From Chloroflexota bacterium (GTDB lineage: Bacteria; Chloroflexota; UBA11872; VXOZ01), in assembly GCA_028874195.1 (NCBI GenBank), contig JAPPLM010000017.1, positions 1-32,024 of the forward strand: a DNA stretch of 32,024 nt, given 5' to 3'. Positions 3,254-26,039 of the stretch are shown here, piece after piece. A program made the translations under genes and the position numbers. The notes under the pieces were generated by a model, which was given only the letters and a program-made list of their open reading frames with translations, did not search any database and was not told the DNA's origin. The stretch's first letter is position 1. Every line of letters starts with the position of its first letter.

Positions 3254-4291
3254 ATGCCAATCATGAATATGCGTCGATTCTTGCTGTCGATGATCTTGCT
3301 TATGCTTGGGATCACGCTCACGAGTTGCGCCGTAGTGCCAGGTGAGCTTCGGCCTGGAAAGTCCGGCGCGGCGGAAAGCTCTGCCATCACCGGAGAAATG
3401 CAGGCAGCCCAGAGCGCGGACTGCCCGGTAACCACACCCACTGTTGCAACGCCGCCGGATTCAAAATACCGGGACCCAATGCCGCGCGGGGCATATTTTG
3501 TAAGCGCCGACGAGTTGATTTGGGTGTCGATGGACTTGTGGGGACGGGGGAGCCGGAAAGTGCCTTGGATCAAGCCGGAAGGCTCGACTTTGACAGTGCA
3601 AGGTCGCCGCCTGGATGGCGATTCCCCGCCGTTGTGGGCCGACATATCTGATGGCTATGTCGGTGACTTTCAATCGAGCAGATTGATCATCCCATCCGCC
3701 GGTTGCTGGGAGATTGAGGCCCGCGCCAACGAGAGCCTGTTGCGGTTCGTGATCTATGTGCCTCAGCGCCCGGAGATCGGGGATGGTCCTACGTGTGATA
3801 GCATCGGCGAGGTCGTGCGACGGAACAGAATTGTCATCGCCGGTCGCGTCGAGAGCAGCATCGTGGATGCAAGCGGCCGGTGGGCATGGCAGAGTGTGCG
3901 CGTGACGCGAAATCTCTATCCATATTCTTTGTACCGTGAAGCCGCGAGCGTGGGCAGGATAGTAACGATCCTGCAGGACACCGCCCGGGAGCCTGCACGT
4001 GCCGCGGGAGCCGAGTACGTGCTCGTGCTCCACGACGACCCGTGGCAGGTGGCATGCCCGCAGCAGACGGTAGCTGCCGTTGACTATACACAGGAAGCCG
4101 CCCGCGTAGAGCCAATGACGCCGGACCAAGCCCTCTGGGCAGGGACAACGCTGCTGGAGATCGAGGAGGAGATTGCGTCGGCCCATCGCAAGGCGCGGGT
4201 AGCGCGCTTGGCGCAGGTTGCAAACCTGCGCTACCGGAGTTTGGGAATCTACTTGTTGCTCGAGTGTTCAATGGACTCTTGCGGAGGCTAG
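3254..4291 (+). CDS. Predicted lipoprotein of unknown function
   Basis: This 345-residue protein starts with a lipoprotein signal: two Arg, a hydrophobic run and the lipobox L-T-S-C with C25 as the expected lipidated residue. It is therefore predicted to be anchored outside the membrane. The middle (about residues 75-180) has a beta-rich block with PEGSTLTVQGRRLDG and a conserved-looking SAGCWEIEARA segment, resembling an Ig-like or carbohydrate-binding-type sandwich often seen in secreted Chloroflexi hypotheticals; this is an impression, not a family assignment. A second domain (about 190-285) with VIAGRVE and a paired Cys may be an OB-like fold. ATG at 3254 follows AGGAAAGAG; the alternative ATG at 3263 gives a similar signal. 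The last 30 residues contain the palindromic repeat at 4211-4234, so the natural C-terminus may have been altered. Confidence 0.8.
   Translation: MPIMNMRRFLLSMILLMLGITLTSCAVVPGELRPGKSGAAESSAITGEMQAAQSADCPVTTPTVATPPDSKYRDPMPRGAYFVSADELIWVSMDLWGRGSRKVPWIKPEGSTLTVQGRRLDGDSPPLWADISDGYVGDFQSSRLIIPSAGCWEIEARANESLLRFVIYVPQRPEIGDGPTCDSIGEVVRRNRIVIAGRVESSIVDASGRWAWQSVRVTRNLYPYSLYREAASVGRIVTILQDTAREPARAAGAEYVLVLHDDPWQVACPQQTVAAVDYTQEAARVEPMTPDQALWAGTTLLEIEEEIASAHRKARVARLAQVANLRYRSLGIYLLLECSMDSCGG
4211..4234 (-). repeat. Dispersed palindrome inside the 3' end of the lipoprotein gene
   Basis: This 24-base segment is identical (24 of 24, opposite orientation) to 28864-28887. Its core gcgcaggttgcaaacctgcg is a near-perfect inverted repeat. 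Here it is translated in frame as part of RLAQVANLRY near the lipoprotein C-terminus, followed by about 20 further residues before the stop. Confidence 0.8.
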
Positions 4292-4349
4292 CGGTATCGG
4301 CTCGGCGTTCAACGCACCTTTGAGATTGTGCCAGAACTGTGTCGGTTGC

Positions 4350-6437
4350 TTAAGGTCCGGCCTGCGGGTCAAACTCCAACGTCACCACGTCGATCTCTGA
4401 GAGCTTGGCAAGGGTGACGAACGTATGCTTGCCCTGCCGGCGGACGTGCACCGCTTCGCCACTGGCGGCGCTGGCCGAGTCCACTGTCACCGCCGACTTG
4501 ATGGTTACGTCTGCCAGCGGCACCGCTTCCGGTACGTCAACCCAAGGTCCGGCGCGCCGACCCCGGCCTGCGCCCTCACCGAGAGGCCGGGTCACGGGAC
4601 AGTTGACGAGGAAGACCTTCATTTCGTTGCCGTCTCTGGTGTAGGCGGCCTCAACGTTGGGCACTCCTTGCAGGCGCACGTCTGCGGCATAGCCGATGAA
4701 CATCAGTATCCGCATCACCATGCGACCAAAGGCCCGCGCGCCCCGCAGCATGTACTCGGCAAAGGGCTCATGGTTGCAGTAGGCAATCTGGCCGTCTCCC
4801 ATGCGCCCAAAGACCACCGCCGGCATACCGGTCTCCGTGCCCCAGCGCGTGCCGTGGCTGTCCCAAACCTCACCGTGGGGCTCGACGATGGGTTTCAGGG
4901 AATACGCGAGTTCCCCAAAGCCGGGGAAGTTCCGCAGCGGCCAGTGGCCCAGCGAGCATGCCAGTTCCCAGTCGGGAATCTGCCACGCCTCCGGCGCATG
5001 AATGTACCAGCCGTCCTGCCGGGCGCCTCGGTGGTCTTGTCTGTCGGCGAGGATGATGCCGAGGTCGCGTTGCAGGTTATTGGCGCCGGTGACGAGCAGG
5101 CGGCCGCCGTGCTCGGCGAACTCCCGCAGCAGCGCAATGGATTCCGGCCGGAGATCGCCGGGATGGGCGACGATGAGCGCTCGCAGACCGGCAAGATCGT
5201 TGGCTTCCAACACGTCGTCGCAGACCATGCGGAAGGGGAAGTGCTGCTCAGACAGGTACTTGTATGCGCCTGCCGTATCCCGGCTCATGCCAGCCACCGT
5301 GGGCACGTTGCCTAACGCCACCTGCTCCTCCGAGAAGAGTAAGCCGATGTCGGCATACGTTGTTGCGCTCGCTCGTTCTTCCGCGAGCGGACCGATCTTC
5401 TTGAACGTCGTCGCGACTTTGTCAAGTACCGGTTGACCAAAGAAACCCGTGCGGGTGTCCGGCGCGCCCCAGATCATAGTGGCGTCGGCGCCCGCCGCCA
5501 GCGCGCTGGCGGCCTGAAACGTCAGTTGGCTTTCGCTGACGCCCGCGTACATGACGTTATCCCAGCAGAAGGCGATTTCCACCGGACGTCCCTTGGCGAA
5601 CGCGCGCAGCCGGTGCGTTTGCAGGGCGGGTGCAAAGAAGTTCCCGCCGGTGGCGTCGGATTCGGCGAAGAGATAGTCGTCGTGCGCGTACGGCCAGTAG
5701 GCGTTGTGGGTGAGTTGGACATCCTTGCCGCTGGCGCGGATGCGCTCCTTTACGCCCGCAAGGTAGTTCTCGACGACGTGATTGCCAAAAGCGGTAAGGC
5801 GTGCGCGGAGCTCTCGCGCGGCTCTCCCAACATGCCTTCTTCCGCGCTGTCCTCTCCTTCGCCCGCCCCGCGAGCCCGCGTGAATTTCCGGTGGTTCTGG
5901 GAAGGTCTCGCCAAAGTGTTCTTGCCACGCGTCTTGGCAGTGCTCGCAATAGCACAACATGCGGTAGTGCACGATGTCCAAGAACAACCGGGAAAACGTG
6001 TAGTTCGCGAGCAACTCGTCGAGCATGGCGTACGTATAGTCGCGATACGGCGAGTTGAGGCAGAGCCAGCGCCACCGCGTGTGCGGCCCGGGTTGCGGAT
6101 TGCCTTCTGCATCATAGCTGCGCCACTCGGGATGGTCGCGGTACGCGTGCTCATCCCAGCGCACGGAATAGTAGAGGGCCGGATCGACGCCATGCTCGTG
6201 TGCCGCTTGCGTTTGCGCCGCGATGAGATCACAGTCGAGCGCCGGGTGGCGCGTTCCAATGGCGGTGTCGTAGTAGGCATGACCCCAGTGGCACTTGGCT
6301 TGCAGCAGCACCGCGTCCGTGCCGATGTCGCGCAGCGCGGCCATCTGCGCGGCGGGATCCACCTGAGAGAGCGTGTGCGCGCCGTAGGGTCCAAGATGGT
6401 TGTCGATGAGTATCCTTCTGGGGCCTACTGCTGCCAT
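4350..6437 (-). CDS. GHL6-type glycoside hydrolase with beta-galactosidase trimerisation domain
   Basis: This 695-residue cytosolic protein has no signal peptide. The N-terminal 350 residues look like a (beta/alpha)8 hydrolase of the hypothetical glycosyl hydrolase 6 kind: ILIDNHLGPYG (9-19), YSVRWDEHAYRDHPEW (90-105), FLDIVHYRMLCYCEHC (152-167) with the characteristic Cys-rich turn, and CWDNVMYAG (291-299). Residues about 360-570 form a glutamine-amidotransferase-like domain (DVLEANDLAGLRALIVAHPG, GGRLLVTG) typical of the trimerisation domain of family 42 beta-galactosidases, and the last 100 residues are beta-rich. Substrate and catalytic acids are not assigned. The start at 6437 follows AAGGGAAAG; a longer reading to 6662 has no family similarity. 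An Arg/Gly-rich stretch at residues 188-212 looks like a foreign low-complexity insert. Such proteins are common in organisms degrading complex carbohydrates. Confidence 0.82.
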   Translation of the reverse strand: MAAVGPRRILIDNHLGPYGAHTLSQVDPAAQMAALRDIGTDAVLLQAKCHWGHAYYDTAIGTRHPALDCDLIAAQTQAAHEHGVDPALYYSVRWDEHAYRDHPEWRSYDAEGNPQPGPHTRWRWLCLNSPYRDYTYAMLDELLANYTFSRLFLDIVHYRMLCYCEHCQDAWQEHFGETFPEPPEIHAGSRGGRRRGQRGRRHVGRAARELRARLTAFGNHVVENYLAGVKERIRASGKDVQLTHNAYWPYAHDDYLFAESDATGGNFFAPALQTHRLRAFAKGRPVEIAFCWDNVMYAGVSESQLTFQAASALAAGADATMIWGAPDTRTGFFGQPVLDKVATTFKKIGPLAEERASATTYADIGLLFSEEQVALGNVPTVAGMSRDTAGAYKYLSEQHFPFRMVCDDVLEANDLAGLRALIVAHPGDLRPESIALLREFAEHGGRLLVTGANNLQRDLGIILADRQDHRGARQDGWYIHAPEAWQIPDWELACSLGHWPLRNFPGFGELAYSLKPIVEPHGEVWDSHGTRWGTETGMPAVVFGRMGDGQIAYCNHEPFAEYMLRGARAFGRMVMRILMFIGYAADVRLQGVPNVEAAYTRDGNEMKVFLVNCPVTRPLGEGAGRGRRAGPWVDVPEAVPLADVTIKSAVTVDSASAASGEAVHVRRQGKHTFVTLAKLSEIDVVTLEFDPQAGP

Positions 6438-14807: not shown

Positions 14808-16253
14808 TTGGCAACTCTGACAGGCACAATTCACGACGCGGCAACGGGCAGCCGGCTGGCGGCGAAGGTCTCGGTGCTGAGCAGCCATGGCAGGTACCTC
14901 GCGCCGGAAGACAGCCTGGCAACCATGGGAACGACCAATCCGTTCTTCTACGCCGACGGCACGTTTTCCCTCGAAGGACCGCGCGGGCAGGTGGACGTGC
15001 GCGTGGAACGGGGCACGGAGTACGCGCCTTTGGAAATGACGGTAGATCTGCCACTGCACGGTACGGTGAAACTCGATTTGCCGCTGCAACGCTGGATTAG
15101 TCTGCCGAAGCAGGGACTCTACCCGGGCAATACGCACATACACTACCGGGAGACTGAAACCCGTCCCGAGGAGCGCCTCCGCTTTGACTCCTCAGTTGAG
15201 GACCTCACCGTCACCATCATCAGCGTGTTGCAGCGCGGCGAACTGGAATACGCCACCAACCGCTTTCCCGTGGGAGAAATGGAGCATCCCACCACGCCCG
15301 GCCACGTGCTCGACGTGGGTGAAGAGACGCGGCACAATAGCTGGTCATACGGCACCGGGTATGGCCATGTGATGCTGGTGCGGCTGCAGGAGCAGGTTGA
15401 GCCGCTCAGCCGCGGTGTGCTCGTGGACGAGTCGGCGCCGGACTATCCCCCGCTGATCGATGCGTGCGCCGCGGCGCAGGAGCAGGGCGGGGTGACGATC
15501 TGGTGCCACAACGGCAAGGGGATGGAAGCGCCGATTGCCGCCGGTCTGGGGCGCTTGGATGCGGTCAATCTCTTCGATCCCTACTGGACTGACCCGGAGT
15601 ACGACCTGTGGTACCACTTGCTCAACTGCGGATTCCAGTTGCCGATAAGCACCGGCTCGGACTGGTTTGTCTGCTCGGCAAACCGCGTCTACGTGCAGCT
15701 TGAGGACTCTTTTTCATACGATTCGTGGCTTAACGGTCTGAAGAGCGGGGCCACCTTTATCACCAACGGGCCGTCGCTTACCCTGCGTGTTGCCGGTCAA
15801 CCGCCCGGCAGCGTCCTGGACGTGCGTACCAGCAGACGCAAGCAGGTGAATACCTTTGTGCGCTGGCAATCCTTGCGGCCGGTGCAACGCATTGAGCTAA
15901 TCTGCAATGGCGACGTGGTGGCGCGCGAGGAATATAGCGAGGGCCTGCGCGAAGGCGTGCTGCGCACGAGACTGGCGGTGCCCAACGACAGTTGGATTGC
16001 CGCCCGCTGCTCGGGCCGCCAGCGTGATAGCTACGGCCACTCCCAATGGGCGCATACCAGTCCGGTCTATGTGCAGGCCGGGGGCGCCAACCCGGCTACA
16101 CGGGCGTCTGCCGAGTTCTTCGTGGCTGAAATGGAGCGGGCAATCGAATGGGTTTCAACGCAAGGCCGCTTCGACCACGACGACCACCGGCAACGCATGC
16201 TGGAGATCTTCGGCAATGGTCGCGAGCAGTACGCGCGGCTCGCCAGCAGTTAG
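14808..16253 (+). CDS. CehA/McbA-like metallohydrolase (PHP superfamily)
   Basis: The 481 residues begin with a beta-rich segment (1-95; SLEGPRGQVDVRVERG looks like a carboxypeptidase-regulatory-like fold). A PHP-type metal centre follows: H110 and H112 in GNTHIH, H234 in IWCHNG and D285 in STGSDW. This resembles the CehA/McbA family, named for carbaryl hydrolases, whose natural substrates are mostly unknown. A beta-sandwich (about 325-415) follows. Being directly behind a sugar-acid dehydratase suggests a role with carbohydrate-derived esters or lactones, but this is inference. The start is TTG at 14808, chosen because GGAGAGAGGA ends 7 bases before it and the family N-terminus starts there. 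No signal peptide is seen. Confidence 0.8.
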   Translation: MATLTGTIHDAATGSRLAAKVSVLSSHGRYLAPEDSLATMGTTNPFFYADGTFSLEGPRGQVDVRVERGTEYAPLEMTVDLPLHGTVKLDLPLQRWISLPKQGLYPGNTHIHYRETETRPEERLRFDSSVEDLTVTIISVLQRGELEYATNRFPVGEMEHPTTPGHVLDVGEETRHNSWSYGTGYGHVMLVRLQEQVEPLSRGVLVDESAPDYPPLIDACAAAQEQGGVTIWCHNGKGMEAPIAAGLGRLDAVNLFDPYWTDPEYDLWYHLLNCGFQLPISTGSDWFVCSANRVYVQLEDSFSYDSWLNGLKSGATFITNGPSLTLRVAGQPPGSVLDVRTSRRKQVNTFVRWQSLRPVQRIELICNGDVVAREEYSEGLREGVLRTRLAVPNDSWIAARCSGRQRDSYGHSQWAHTSPVYVQAGGANPATRASAEFFVAEMERAIEWVSTQGRFDHDDHRQRMLEIFGNGREQYARLASS

Positions 16254-16764: not shown

Positions 16765-16790
16765 GGTCGGTGTGGACGTGCCAAATTGCG

Positions 16791-16818
16791 GATGGATTCC
16801 CGCGTGTGCGGGAATAAC
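16791..16818 (+). repeat. Repeat family A palindrome, copy 2
   Basis: gatggattcccgcgtgtgcg followed by ggaataac. It has the same hairpin as the copies at 26061 and 27015; the right end reads aataac instead of aatgac. Confidence 0.75.
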
Positions 16819-18232: not shown

Positions 18233-18668
18233 GAGCAGGTCTCCTCCTGTAGGAAGAATTGACGAACTGCAATCTAACAAGGCAAAGGTGATTATGGGAA
18301 CTTTGTGCTTGGAAGCGCAATGAAGCATTGTCAGAGAAAGATCGCGCCTAGGCCACAGTATACGGCATCCCTCACCCGGAGAGTGGGATCAACTATTCGC
18401 AGGACTTTTGGGTGCGAGAGTGGCGTATCTGCGGCGAGCGGGGTGTCAGGAGGGTCTTACACTACACCGCACACCGCAATAGCATGTTCCCGTAGGCCGC
18501 GTCTACTCTGGTATCATTGAAATTAGAAGAATGACGAATGTCTTGGGCCAGTTGGGTCTGTGAAATCAGACGGATGTAATTGGTAGCCGTGTCCACTATT
18601 AGCCACCGAGTATTCGCTGGCTCTTCCCGCGCAAGCGCGAATCCATCCCTTGACTATAGAGAATCACC
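18233..18668. other. Divergent intergenic region, 436 bases
   Basis: This region lies between the minus-strand alcohol dehydrogenase and the plus-strand ATPase. It holds a cctcacccggagagtggg element at about 18,370, similar in kind to repeats near 12,200, and a diverged family A palindrome at 18623-18649 just before the ATPase start. No gene was recognised. Confidence 0.5.
18623..18649 (-). repeat. Repeat family A palindrome, diverged inverted copy
   Basis: On the minus strand it reads gggatggattcgcgcttgcg followed by cgggaaga: the family A element with one substitution in the left arm and a diverged right end. It ends 20 bases before the GTG of the ATPase gene. Confidence 0.6.
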
Positions 18669-20015
18669 GTGATTACCTCGCTCCGCCTCGTCAACTTCAA
18701 GAACTTCGCCGATGAAACACTGCGCCTCGGTCCGTTCACCCTTATCGTGGGGGCCAACGCAAGCGGTAAGAGTAACATTCGGGATGCTTTTCGATTCCTT
18801 GAGGGCATTTGCGACAACTACACTTTGGCGGAGATTCTTGGTGGAAGATATGGTGCTGAAGATCAGCCTGTCCGTGGCGCTGCCAATGAGGTTATTCGCT
18901 TTGGACAGGATGAATTCGCTCTTGAAGTCGAGATGGAATTGACTGAGTTGCTCAAGTCAGGCGTAAAGAGCATACGCTATTTTATCCGAATCCGACGTGA
19001 TCAGGCTGGAGGTCAATTCCAAGTTATAGCCGAATCACTAAGAACTGGTGCAAGGACGCCGGATTCGCGAGTTCCTGAAATCTTGTATACGAGTGATCCG
19101 CCCCTGAATTGCAGCAAGGGAGCGGAGCTAGAGGATTCCAAGCTGCGTCTCTACCTTCCGCTGGCCGGCGAGCCGATAGAAGTCGCTTCAGATCAACCTG
19201 GCCTCAGTCAGATTGATGATTTCCTTAGTGATTTTGTCAGTATGAACGGGCCTGAAGACATTGATGACGAACAAGCTAAGGACCTTATAGCTAAGTTGAC
19301 TATCTACCTGACAAAGCTGGACATCAGGAGAGAACTCTTGAGTATGCACTTTCTGGAGTTATCGCCGGAAAGCATGCGGAGGGCTGCCGTCCCTGGTGCT
19401 ACTAGATTGGGCGAATCAGGCAACAATTTGGCCACAGTGCTCGAGGCAATCTGCGGTAGTGCCCAGCGCAAGAGTGTCCTTCTATCATGGTTACATGAAC
19501 TTACCCCGATGGACGTAGAGGACTTGGAGTTTCCAATTGACCTGGACGGAACAGTAAACCTTCGAATACGGGAGGCTAATGGGCGAGGAGTATCGGCTCA
19601 TAGTGCATCTGATGGTACACTGCGGTTTCTCGGCATGCTGGCCGTGCTTTTGAGCGAAGACAGTGCTGGCTTCTACTTCTTCGAGGAGATCGACAACGGC
19701 ATCCATCCCGCGCGACTGCACCTCTTATTAGACCTCATTGAGCGGCAGACCGCCAAGGGAAAGATTCAAGTAGTTGCCACTACGCATTCGCCAGACGTGT
19801 TGAACCTCATAAATGACACGACTTTCGAGAATGCAGTGGTGGTCTATCGCGATGAGGACGCGGCGGACGCAGTCATCCGCCAGGTGGCGGAATTACCTAA
19901 TGCCCGAGAACTGCGGAAGTCCCAGGGACTGGGACGCCTCCACGCCAGCGGTTGGATGGAGAACATACTCTCATTCGCGGAGGCGGATGGGGAAGGTCAG
20001 AAGGACGGAGAATGA
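18669..20015 (+). CDS. AAA (ABC/SMC-type) ATPase of a two-gene ATPase/TOPRIM-like module
   Basis: This 448-residue ATPase belongs to the AAA_21/OLD-like class. The N-terminus MITSLRLVNFKNF is the usual RecF/SMC-like start. Walker A GANASGKSN is at 28-36, the ABC-type signature region SASDGTLRFL at 312-321, Walker B FYFFEEID at 335-342 with the catalytic Glu, and the switch histidine in ATTHSP at 370-375. Residues 50-300 are an insert (coiled coil or lid) of unknown role. The stop codon overlaps the start of the next gene (ATGA), indicating translational coupling. The gene is visibly less GC-rich than its neighbours and uses more A/T-ending codons, suggesting acquisition. Paired ATPase plus TOPRIM/RloB-type nucleases occur in phage defence (OLD, Gabija, PARIS, AbiL); membership of any of these is not shown. 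GTG start, weak ribosome binding site. Confidence 0.85.
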   Translation: MITSLRLVNFKNFADETLRLGPFTLIVGANASGKSNIRDAFRFLEGICDNYTLAEILGGRYGAEDQPVRGAANEVIRFGQDEFALEVEMELTELLKSGVKSIRYFIRIRRDQAGGQFQVIAESLRTGARTPDSRVPEILYTSDPPLNCSKGAELEDSKLRLYLPLAGEPIEVASDQPGLSQIDDFLSDFVSMNGPEDIDDEQAKDLIAKLTIYLTKLDIRRELLSMHFLELSPESMRRAAVPGATRLGESGNNLATVLEAICGSAQRKSVLLSWLHELTPMDVEDLEFPIDLDGTVNLRIREANGRGVSAHSASDGTLRFLGMLAVLLSEDSAGFYFFEEIDNGIHPARLHLLLDLIERQTAKGKIQVVATTHSPDVLNLINDTTFENAVVVYRDEDAADAVIRQVAELPNARELRKSQGLGRLHASGWMENILSFAEADGEGQKDGE

Positions 20016-20565
20016 GAGTCCTCCTGATCCCAGAAGATTTTCGCAACGATCAATACATTCTGAAGCCTATCTTTGAACGACTGTGTCGTGATATTGGCAG
20101 GTCGTCCCTGCGCGTTGAGGTTTGCCTTGACCCTTTGCTTGGCGGAGTAACTGAGGCATTGAAATCGGAACGCGTGCAAGAAATCGTCGAACAATACCCT
20201 ACGATAGACATCTTCATTCTTTGCGTAGACCGCGACGGCTGTGAGGGGAGACGCCAAAGACTCGATCAGATCGAAGCCGAGTTTGGAGACGCCTTCTTTG
20301 CGGAGAACGCTTGGGAAGAGATCGAGACGTGGGTACTGGCTGGATTAGAGTTGCCCACAGACTGGAATTGGCGGGATGTTCGCGCAGAAGTGCACGTCAA
20401 GGAGACTTACTTCGAGCCGTTTGCCGCTCTACGCGAATTGTCCGAGCGCCTGGCGGCGGTCGCAAGGAAGTAGGGGAAGAGGCAGCGCGTCAGATTGGCG
20501 CGATTCGACAGAAATGCCCCGAGGACTTTGACAGTCTTGCTCGACGTCTTGAGGCCAAAGTCTAA
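20012..20565 (+). pseudogene. TOPRIM-like (DUF4276/RloB-like) partner protein, apparent one-base frameshift
   Basis: The first frame from ATG 20012 (overlapping the ATPase stop) gives 153 residues ending at TAG 20471. It has a TOPRIM-like layout: E8 in LLIPEDF, the D-x-D of LCVDRDG (D73, D75), and ENAWEEIETWVLAG (98-111), a phrase typical of DUF4276-type proteins. After L147 the frame degenerates to AAVARK and stops. The -1 frame starting at 20452 continues as GGGRKEVGEEAARQIGAIRQ then KCPEDFDSLARRLE to a stop at 20565, which looks like the natural C-terminus. The joined protein would be about 184 residues. The break lies in ggcggcgg (20452-20459), a tract prone to indels or sequencing error. 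It could be a real mutation, an assembly error or, less likely, recoding; the catalytic-type residues lie in the intact part. Confidence 0.72.
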
Positions 20566-25048: not shown

Positions 25049-25130
25049 ATTTGGTTGGCGTTCGTACGGTTGACCGTTGCTGACTGCTCGTAGCGCGCAG
25101 CCATTGTCTGCCAATGCGGTCGAGTTCGGT

Positions 25131-26039
25131 CTATTCGTCGGCGGTCAGTTGGCGCACCGGTGTCGCGAGCAGGCCGATTTCGTCGATCTCGATCTCCACG
25201 ATGTCACCGGCCCGCAGCGCGGCGTCTTCCGTCACGATGATGCCCGTGCCCGTGCTCACCACCGTGCCCACCGGCACGGGGTTATTGCGTACGAGATAGG
25301 CGGTAAGGGTCTCGAAGGGATGCCGAATCTGGTCGGTATTCGCGGAACCCTCGAAGATCACCGTGCCGTCACGGCGGATGCGGGCCGTGATCTCCAGATG
25401 ATAGGGATCGGTGATTTCTCCCGTCGTCACAAAGGTCGGGCCGAGGGCCGTGCACCCCAAGAAGATCTTCGACTGCGGCAAGTAGAGCGGATTCTCGCGT
25501 TCGATGTCCCAGGCCGACACGTCATCGCAGATCGTGTATCCGATGATCTCATTATCGAAGCCCAGCACGTAGGCGAGCTCCGGCTCCGGCGCCGTGAAGG
25601 TAGAGTCGACGCGGATGCCGATAGGCTCGTTCGGCCCGGCGCAGTGCTGCGTATCGCCCTTATAGAAGATTTCCGGGCGGTCCGACTGGTACACCTTGTC
25701 GTAGATGCCCATGGGCCCTTCCATGTCGGCGTCGCGAAACTCGGCGCTGCGGCGATATGTTACCCCACACCCCCACACCTGCGGCGGGAATAAGGGCATG
25801 GTGAGCCGGGGTTCGTCCGGCTCGAGAAGCTCCGCATACGCGTGCGCGCCGCCGGAGGCGTCGGCAAGCCTGTCCGCGATTACGTCATCGAGCGAGCGGC
25901 GCTGCCGGCGAGCCTCGTCCACAAAGTCCAGCGTCGTCGTGAGGTCCTGTTCCGAGTCGGTGATGTCGATAACCTGTCCGTCTTGAACGACACCGACGCG
26001 AATGCGCGAGTCCACGTCATAGTATTGCACCAGTTTCAC
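25131..26039 (-). CDS. FAH-family 2-dehydro-3-deoxy-D-arabinonate dehydratase-like protein
   Basis: This 302-residue protein of the fumarylacetoacetate hydrolase fold has Mg-binding residues E152 and E154 (PEPELAYVLG) and D172 or D173 (CDDVSAWDIE). The sequence is unusually close, as I recall it, to archaeal 2-keto-3-deoxy-arabinonate dehydratase: VWGCGVTYRRS (88-98), YDKVYQSDRPEIFYKG (113-128), ENPLYLPQSKIFLGC (182-196), RNNPVP. That enzyme dehydrates the C5 keto-deoxy acid to 2-oxoglutarate semialdehyde. It would fit downstream of a sugar-acid dehydratase such as 13565-14752, although they are 11 kb apart. The start is GTG 26039, because AAAGAGGAGCC precedes it; a longer reading to 26141 would translate the repeat at 26061 as FPRKRESI and is rejected. 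Confidence 0.85.
   Translation of the reverse strand: MKLVQYYDVDSRIRVGVVQDGQVIDITDSEQDLTTTLDFVDEARRQRRSLDDVIADRLADASGGAHAYAELLEPDEPRLTMPLFPPQVWGCGVTYRRSAEFRDADMEGPMGIYDKVYQSDRPEIFYKGDTQHCAGPNEPIGIRVDSTFTAPEPELAYVLGFDNEIIGYTICDDVSAWDIERENPLYLPQSKIFLGCTALGPTFVTTGEITDPYHLEITARIRRDGTVIFEGSANTDQIRHPFETLTAYLVRNNPVPVGTVVSTGTGIIVTEDAALRAGDIVEIEIDEIGLLATPVRQLTADE

Follow-up and report, generated by a model that had tools for sequence, protein, structure and literature searches.

A coupled OLD-type ABC ATPase and small TOPRIM-like protein as a probable mobile anti-phage module

The question raised by this locus is what two tightly coupled genes of low GC content are doing between the metabolic genes of a Chloroflexota bacterium. 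The window, which is the whole stretch of 32,024 nucleotides that was analysed, carries at positions 18669 to 20565 a pair that a first-pass annotation described as an ATPase with a small TOPRIM-like partner, probably acquired and of a defence type. The evidence makes it probable that the pair is a mobile two-gene anti-phage module of the OLD-ABC plus TOPRIM kind, in which the ATPase gates a predicted nuclease.

The gene pair and the state of the window copy

The upstream gene (18669..20015, forward strand) has a GTG start and encodes an OLD/SMC-type ABC ATPase of 448 amino acids, the predicted sensor or regulator of the pair. The ABC-type motifs listed in the first-pass annotation are all found, with Walker A GANASGKS at residue 28, a signature-like SASDGT at residue 312, Walker B FYFFEEIDNGIHP at residue 335 and an H-loop-like ATTHSP at residue 370. 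The downstream gene (20012..20473, forward strand) starts within the last 4 bases of the ATPase gene, forming an ATGA overlap, and encodes a TOPRIM-like, DUF4276-related predicted nuclease. Residues E8 and D73/D75 and the EEIETWVLAG block are present in this partner as annotated, and E8, D9, D13, D73, D75, E103, E105, W107, K130, E131 and R151 are invariant in the 32 relatives of alignment A1.

Scanning genome contigs with the partner gives 39 loci, to which 3 same-genus copies were added, and the spacing of the two genes can be scored in 40 loci. An ATPase homologue lies directly upstream on the same strand in 40/40 of these, with the 4-base overlap retained in 37/40, and conservation of the arrangement over 40 loci means that the pairing is not a product of chance.

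The partner frame of the window copy is shortened to 153 amino acids compared with 184-198 amino acids in its relatives, close to the repaired length of about 184 that had been predicted. Compared with G002, a genome of the same genus, the window copy lacks one base at about position 20443, and the C-terminal part continues in a shifted frame (20443..20565, forward strand) with the conserved GGGR and KCPEDF motifs, the tail of the open reading frame 20311-20565 matching the relatives. The frameshift drops the invariant R151 and removes the C-terminal helices of the effector, so the locus may be dead in this strain; a decayed remnant, which would fit either view of what the family does, is given an even chance. 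The rest of the partner gene is under strong purifying selection (dN/dS 0.08) and the contig comes from a draft assembly of 81 contigs, both of which argue against decay. The shifted frame may be real and leave the window copy non-functional, or it may stem from a sequencing or assembly error.

Predicted fold and kinship of the two proteins

The AF2 model of the G002 partner orthologue shows an alpha/beta fold (pLDDT 93, pTM 0.88) with E8 placed just past strand 1, the DxD motif ending a core strand and E103/E105 beginning the helix after the last strand. Structural comparison with VIA-align gives 2p62 in the top row (Z 8.9, rmsd 4.0, 164 aligned residues) and C-terminal regions of class-2 OLD proteins close behind, with 6nk8 in the second row (Z 8.1, rmsd 4.2, 156 aligned) and 6njv at Z 7.3, a Z of about 8 being modest on its own and at the level of common fold arrangements. 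Foldseek of the model against the PDB gives no match under E 0.028, and PDB sequence searches with the single partner sequence and with its profile give no significant match. BpOLD binds two Mg2+ through E400, D455/D457 and T506/E508, the last of these in the helical domain's first helix (PMC6755086). The invariant E, DxD and ExE of the partner are comparable to these residues in kind and in order along the chain, and are candidates for the same structural places. The predicted fold and the invariant residues support assignment of the partner as a TOPRIM protein and, taken with the obligate pairing and the OLD structural match, uphold the annotated combination of an ATPase with a TOPRIM-like partner.

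Against a profile of DUF4276 proteins collected in this analysis the partner reaches 93.7% in hhalign, in an alignment that covers the DxD, the E-x-W block and the KCP-F tail, which at the profile level indicates a distant kinship with DUF4276. The Pfam DUF4276 model (PF14103) gives weak matches in 8/32 partner members (best E 0.0035), all below the curated cut-off, and Pfam, NCBIfam and PADLOC 2.0 each fail to recognise the partner family. The first-pass annotation had placed the partner closer in size to RloB-type proteins; the similarity in size holds, but kinship with RloB (PF13707) was rejected, with no Pfam match and an hhalign score of 0.2%, and the profile points to DUF4276 instead. 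Kinship of the partner with PIN proteins was likewise rejected, having no hhalign support.

The window ATPase matches Pfam AAA_21 (5e-31), and among PADLOC models it scores best with PDC-M07A (4e-67), followed by HEC-01A (3e-42), AriA (7e-34) and AbiLi (1e-26). Its AF2 model (pLDDT 86.7) is matched by SMC, Rad50, PtuA and OLD heads at Z 18-22. In the ATPase tree every TOPRIM-linked ATPase falls in one clade (SH-aLRT 99) with the PDC-M07 ATPases as its sister group (99), and the DUF4276-linked and HEC-01B-linked ATPases are separate from it. The greatest divergence occurs in an insert at about residues 100-245 (18966..19400, forward strand), with 29-53% identity to the congeners in 50-column blocks compared with 84-96% for the Walker A and Walker B blocks, whereas the partner is 81-88% identical between congeners (G002 and G003). 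The hypervariability makes this insert the likely trigger-recognition part of the ATPase.

These likenesses bear on the substrate of the predicted nuclease. As a variant of the defence reading, the TOPRIM effector could be a DNA nickase or nuclease gated by nucleotide or DNA state, as in OLD, Gabija or Septu-like systems, and not an RNA-cutting toxin gated by a phage protein. The best TOPRIM structural neighbours of the partner are OLD DNA nuclease domains and the ATPase resembles SMC/Rad50/PtuA heads, which keeps the DNA variant a serious possibility. It nevertheless falls short of being probable, with the small standalone TOPRIM protein of PARIS, AriB, cleaving tRNA (PMC12409363) and the hypervariable insert appearing better suited to a protein trigger than to a universal DNA or nucleotide cue.

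Genomic context and mobility

The GC content of the ATPase gene is 52.4% and that of the partner gene 53.6%, compared with 65.0% in both flanking genes, in agreement with the lower GC noted in the first-pass annotation, and the modules of three congeners have 53-54% compared with 58-62% for their loci. The window copy is surrounded by genes for an Fe-dependent alcohol dehydrogenase, a Rieske protein and aconitase, and no defence island is found around it. In G001, G002 and G003 the pair occupies the same site as in the window, between the Fe-dependent alcohol dehydrogenase and Rieske-domain genes. In G004, of the same genus, these two genes adjoin and the module is absent, leaving an empty site that shows the module to be dispensable. 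Two long open reading frames elsewhere in the window, 14808-16253 (481 amino acids) and 25077-25793 (238 amino acids), are without a convincing Pfam family.

A dispersed REP-like palindrome (18624..18648, reverse strand) ends 20 bases before the ATPase start. The position given for this repeat in the first-pass annotation is correct, but its link to the module does not stand, because the palindrome (GGATGGATTCSCGC..GCGSGAA) is one of at least 16 dispersed copies in the genome, compared with 0 for a reversed control pattern, and is thus not part of the module. A second window copy lies at 16790-16814 and a similar palindrome lies upstream of the G002 copy of the pair, and the repeat was rejected as a mobile-element boundary.

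Hosts of the pair belong to at least eight phyla (Chloroflexota, Latescibacterota, Binatota, Pseudomonadota, Gemmatimonadota, Acidobacteriota, Spirochaetota and Cyanobacteriota). The partner tree requires 14 phylum changes against a minimum of 7, a pattern consistent with inter-phylum transfer, although contaminated bins could also contribute to it. Two alphaproteobacterial bins with different names (L018 and L019) have identical partner proteins, which may stem from a recent transfer, from a single population or from a contig common to both bins. A cyanobacterial plasmid carries one copy of the pair close to an integrase. Another is on a contractile-tail phage contig (L134, IMGVR_UViG_3300036393_000014, 3754-5582), where it directly follows the tape-measure gene between tail genes and is possibly a moron-type defence cargo. 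A phage database of 50,697 records gives no match to the module. The low GC, the empty congener site, the patchy spread over eight phyla and the plasmid and phage-contig copies agree with the earlier proposal of an acquired module.

Five loci (L020, L023, L024, L026 and L031, from Latescibacterota, Alphaproteobacteria and Binatota), with the window copy not among them, carry the pair within Hma operons. Hma has been defined with PADLOC as a candidate defence system (PMC8565338), and genes embedded in Hma, termed HECs, include systems of demonstrated antiviral activity (PMC12988326). The pair is placed between hmaB and hmaC in four of the loci, and in L031 it follows a partial hmaB and a restriction enzyme gene and precedes hmaC. 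The Hma genes of L023 match HmaB (3e-119) and HmaC (1e-68), and those of the other four loci were identified by blast homologues. A few other loci place the pair near DpdF, HEC-07/PsyrT or HEC-01A genes. Flanks outside the Hma cases are mostly metabolic, with few of 97 flank proteins matching PADLOC strongly. Two different ATPase/effector pairs share the Latescibacteria Hma locus L020 (40-6564): the first is HEC-01-like and has a DUF4276 partner, the second belongs to the TOPRIM-like family.

The context bears on whether the pair serves defence at all, as it could instead act in DNA repair or regulation, or be a selfish module of the toxin-antitoxin type, and be kept by addiction or housekeeping. 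Such a role would account for the many copies, the window's included, that lie between metabolic genes and for the fixed site shared by 4/6 congeners. It is judged improbable in view of the five Hma-operon copies, the copy in a phage tail cluster and the DpdF, HEC-07/PsyrT and HEC-01A neighbours, along with the dispensability shown by G004. The neighbourhood survey suggested in the first-pass annotation finds no consistent housekeeping partner, and on the basis of context the Hma operons and the defence genes beside a few further copies favour the defence type that it had proposed.

Proposed function and comparison with known systems

In the preferred reading of an anti-phage module, the ATPase, an ABC/SMC head with a variable insert, would assemble with the small TOPRIM protein and restrain it. 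On sensing a phage-made trigger the ATPase would license the TOPRIM protein, a putative two-metal nuclease using E8, D73/D75 and E103/E105, whose cutting of nucleic acid would abort the infection. The target may be tRNA, the substrate of PARIS AriB, or DNA, that of OLD and Gabija. Congeneric copies have a conserved nuclease but ATPase inserts in which over half of the positions differ, and insert swaps can therefore test what these ATPases sense.

In BREX and related systems, OLD-ABC dyads with TOPRIM, PIN, HNH or other nucleases are pervasive as back-up effectors (PMC12839542), and the pair, with an OLD/AAA_21-type ATPase gene directly coupled to a predicted TOPRIM-like gene, appears to belong to this general kind. 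The effector family that it brings to this kind is uncatalogued, as PADLOC 2.0, Pfam and NCBIfam all miss it, and it occurs in at least eight phyla, most of which are represented here by uncultured genomes. The profile searches proposed in the first-pass annotation assign the ATPase to AAA_21 with PDC-M07A as best model and leave the effector unrecognised. The same genome contains two further ATPase pairs, one (contig C71, locus L002 865-2064 and 2061-2672) with a clear DUF4276 partner (7.7e-25) and one (contig C76, locus L005 899-2071 and 250-894, reverse strand) with a DUF3226 partner (3.5e-53). The latter partner has a VEGPDD motif of TOPRIM-like appearance.

PDC-M07 resembles the pair in its sister-clade ATPase, which the PDC-M07A match reflects, and in the same tightly coupled gene order. 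The systems differ in their effectors, as PDC-M07B is an unrelated protein (hhalign 0.3%), read as PIN-like from its motifs and a sub-threshold PIN_12 match, whereas the effector here is TOPRIM/DUF4276-like. The PDC-M07B model (PDLC04394) has no match in the window genome but does match in 8 further Chloroflexota genomes. Among the papers available to this analysis, a literature search found none on PDC-M07 or DUF4276. As the sister PDC-M07 ATPases have an unrelated PIN-like partner, the ATPase tree points to an exchange of effectors on one sensor lineage, of which this would be a clean case. A more tentative and rather unlikely extension is that this lineage is an exchangeable phage-sensing unit with swapped effectors, PIN-like in PDC-M07 and TOPRIM in the present pair. 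Its hypervariable insert would then recognise a phage protein that evolves fast, and its place in Hma operons would be that of a back-up triggered when a phage blocks Hma.

The HEC-01/AbiL-type pairs of an ATPase with a DUF4276 protein share the effector superfamily by profile, the ATPase matches to HEC-01A and AbiLi, and the embedding in Hma operons seen for HECs. They differ in that the HEC-01B models miss the effector (0.008 for the window copy, 4.8e-4 for the best of 32 members, hhalign 36%) and in that the window ATPase lies in another clade of the tree. PARIS is similar in having two genes, with an AAA_21-type ABC ATPase and a separate TOPRIM protein, and in the AriA match of the window ATPase. 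The partner of about 184 amino acids, relatives included, has no match to an AriB model in Pfam or PADLOC, and for the ATPase PDC-M07A is a far better-scoring model than AriA. Most likely the pair represents an uncatalogued variant among the PARIS/AbiL/HEC-01-like dyads, of the alarm-and-toxin type.
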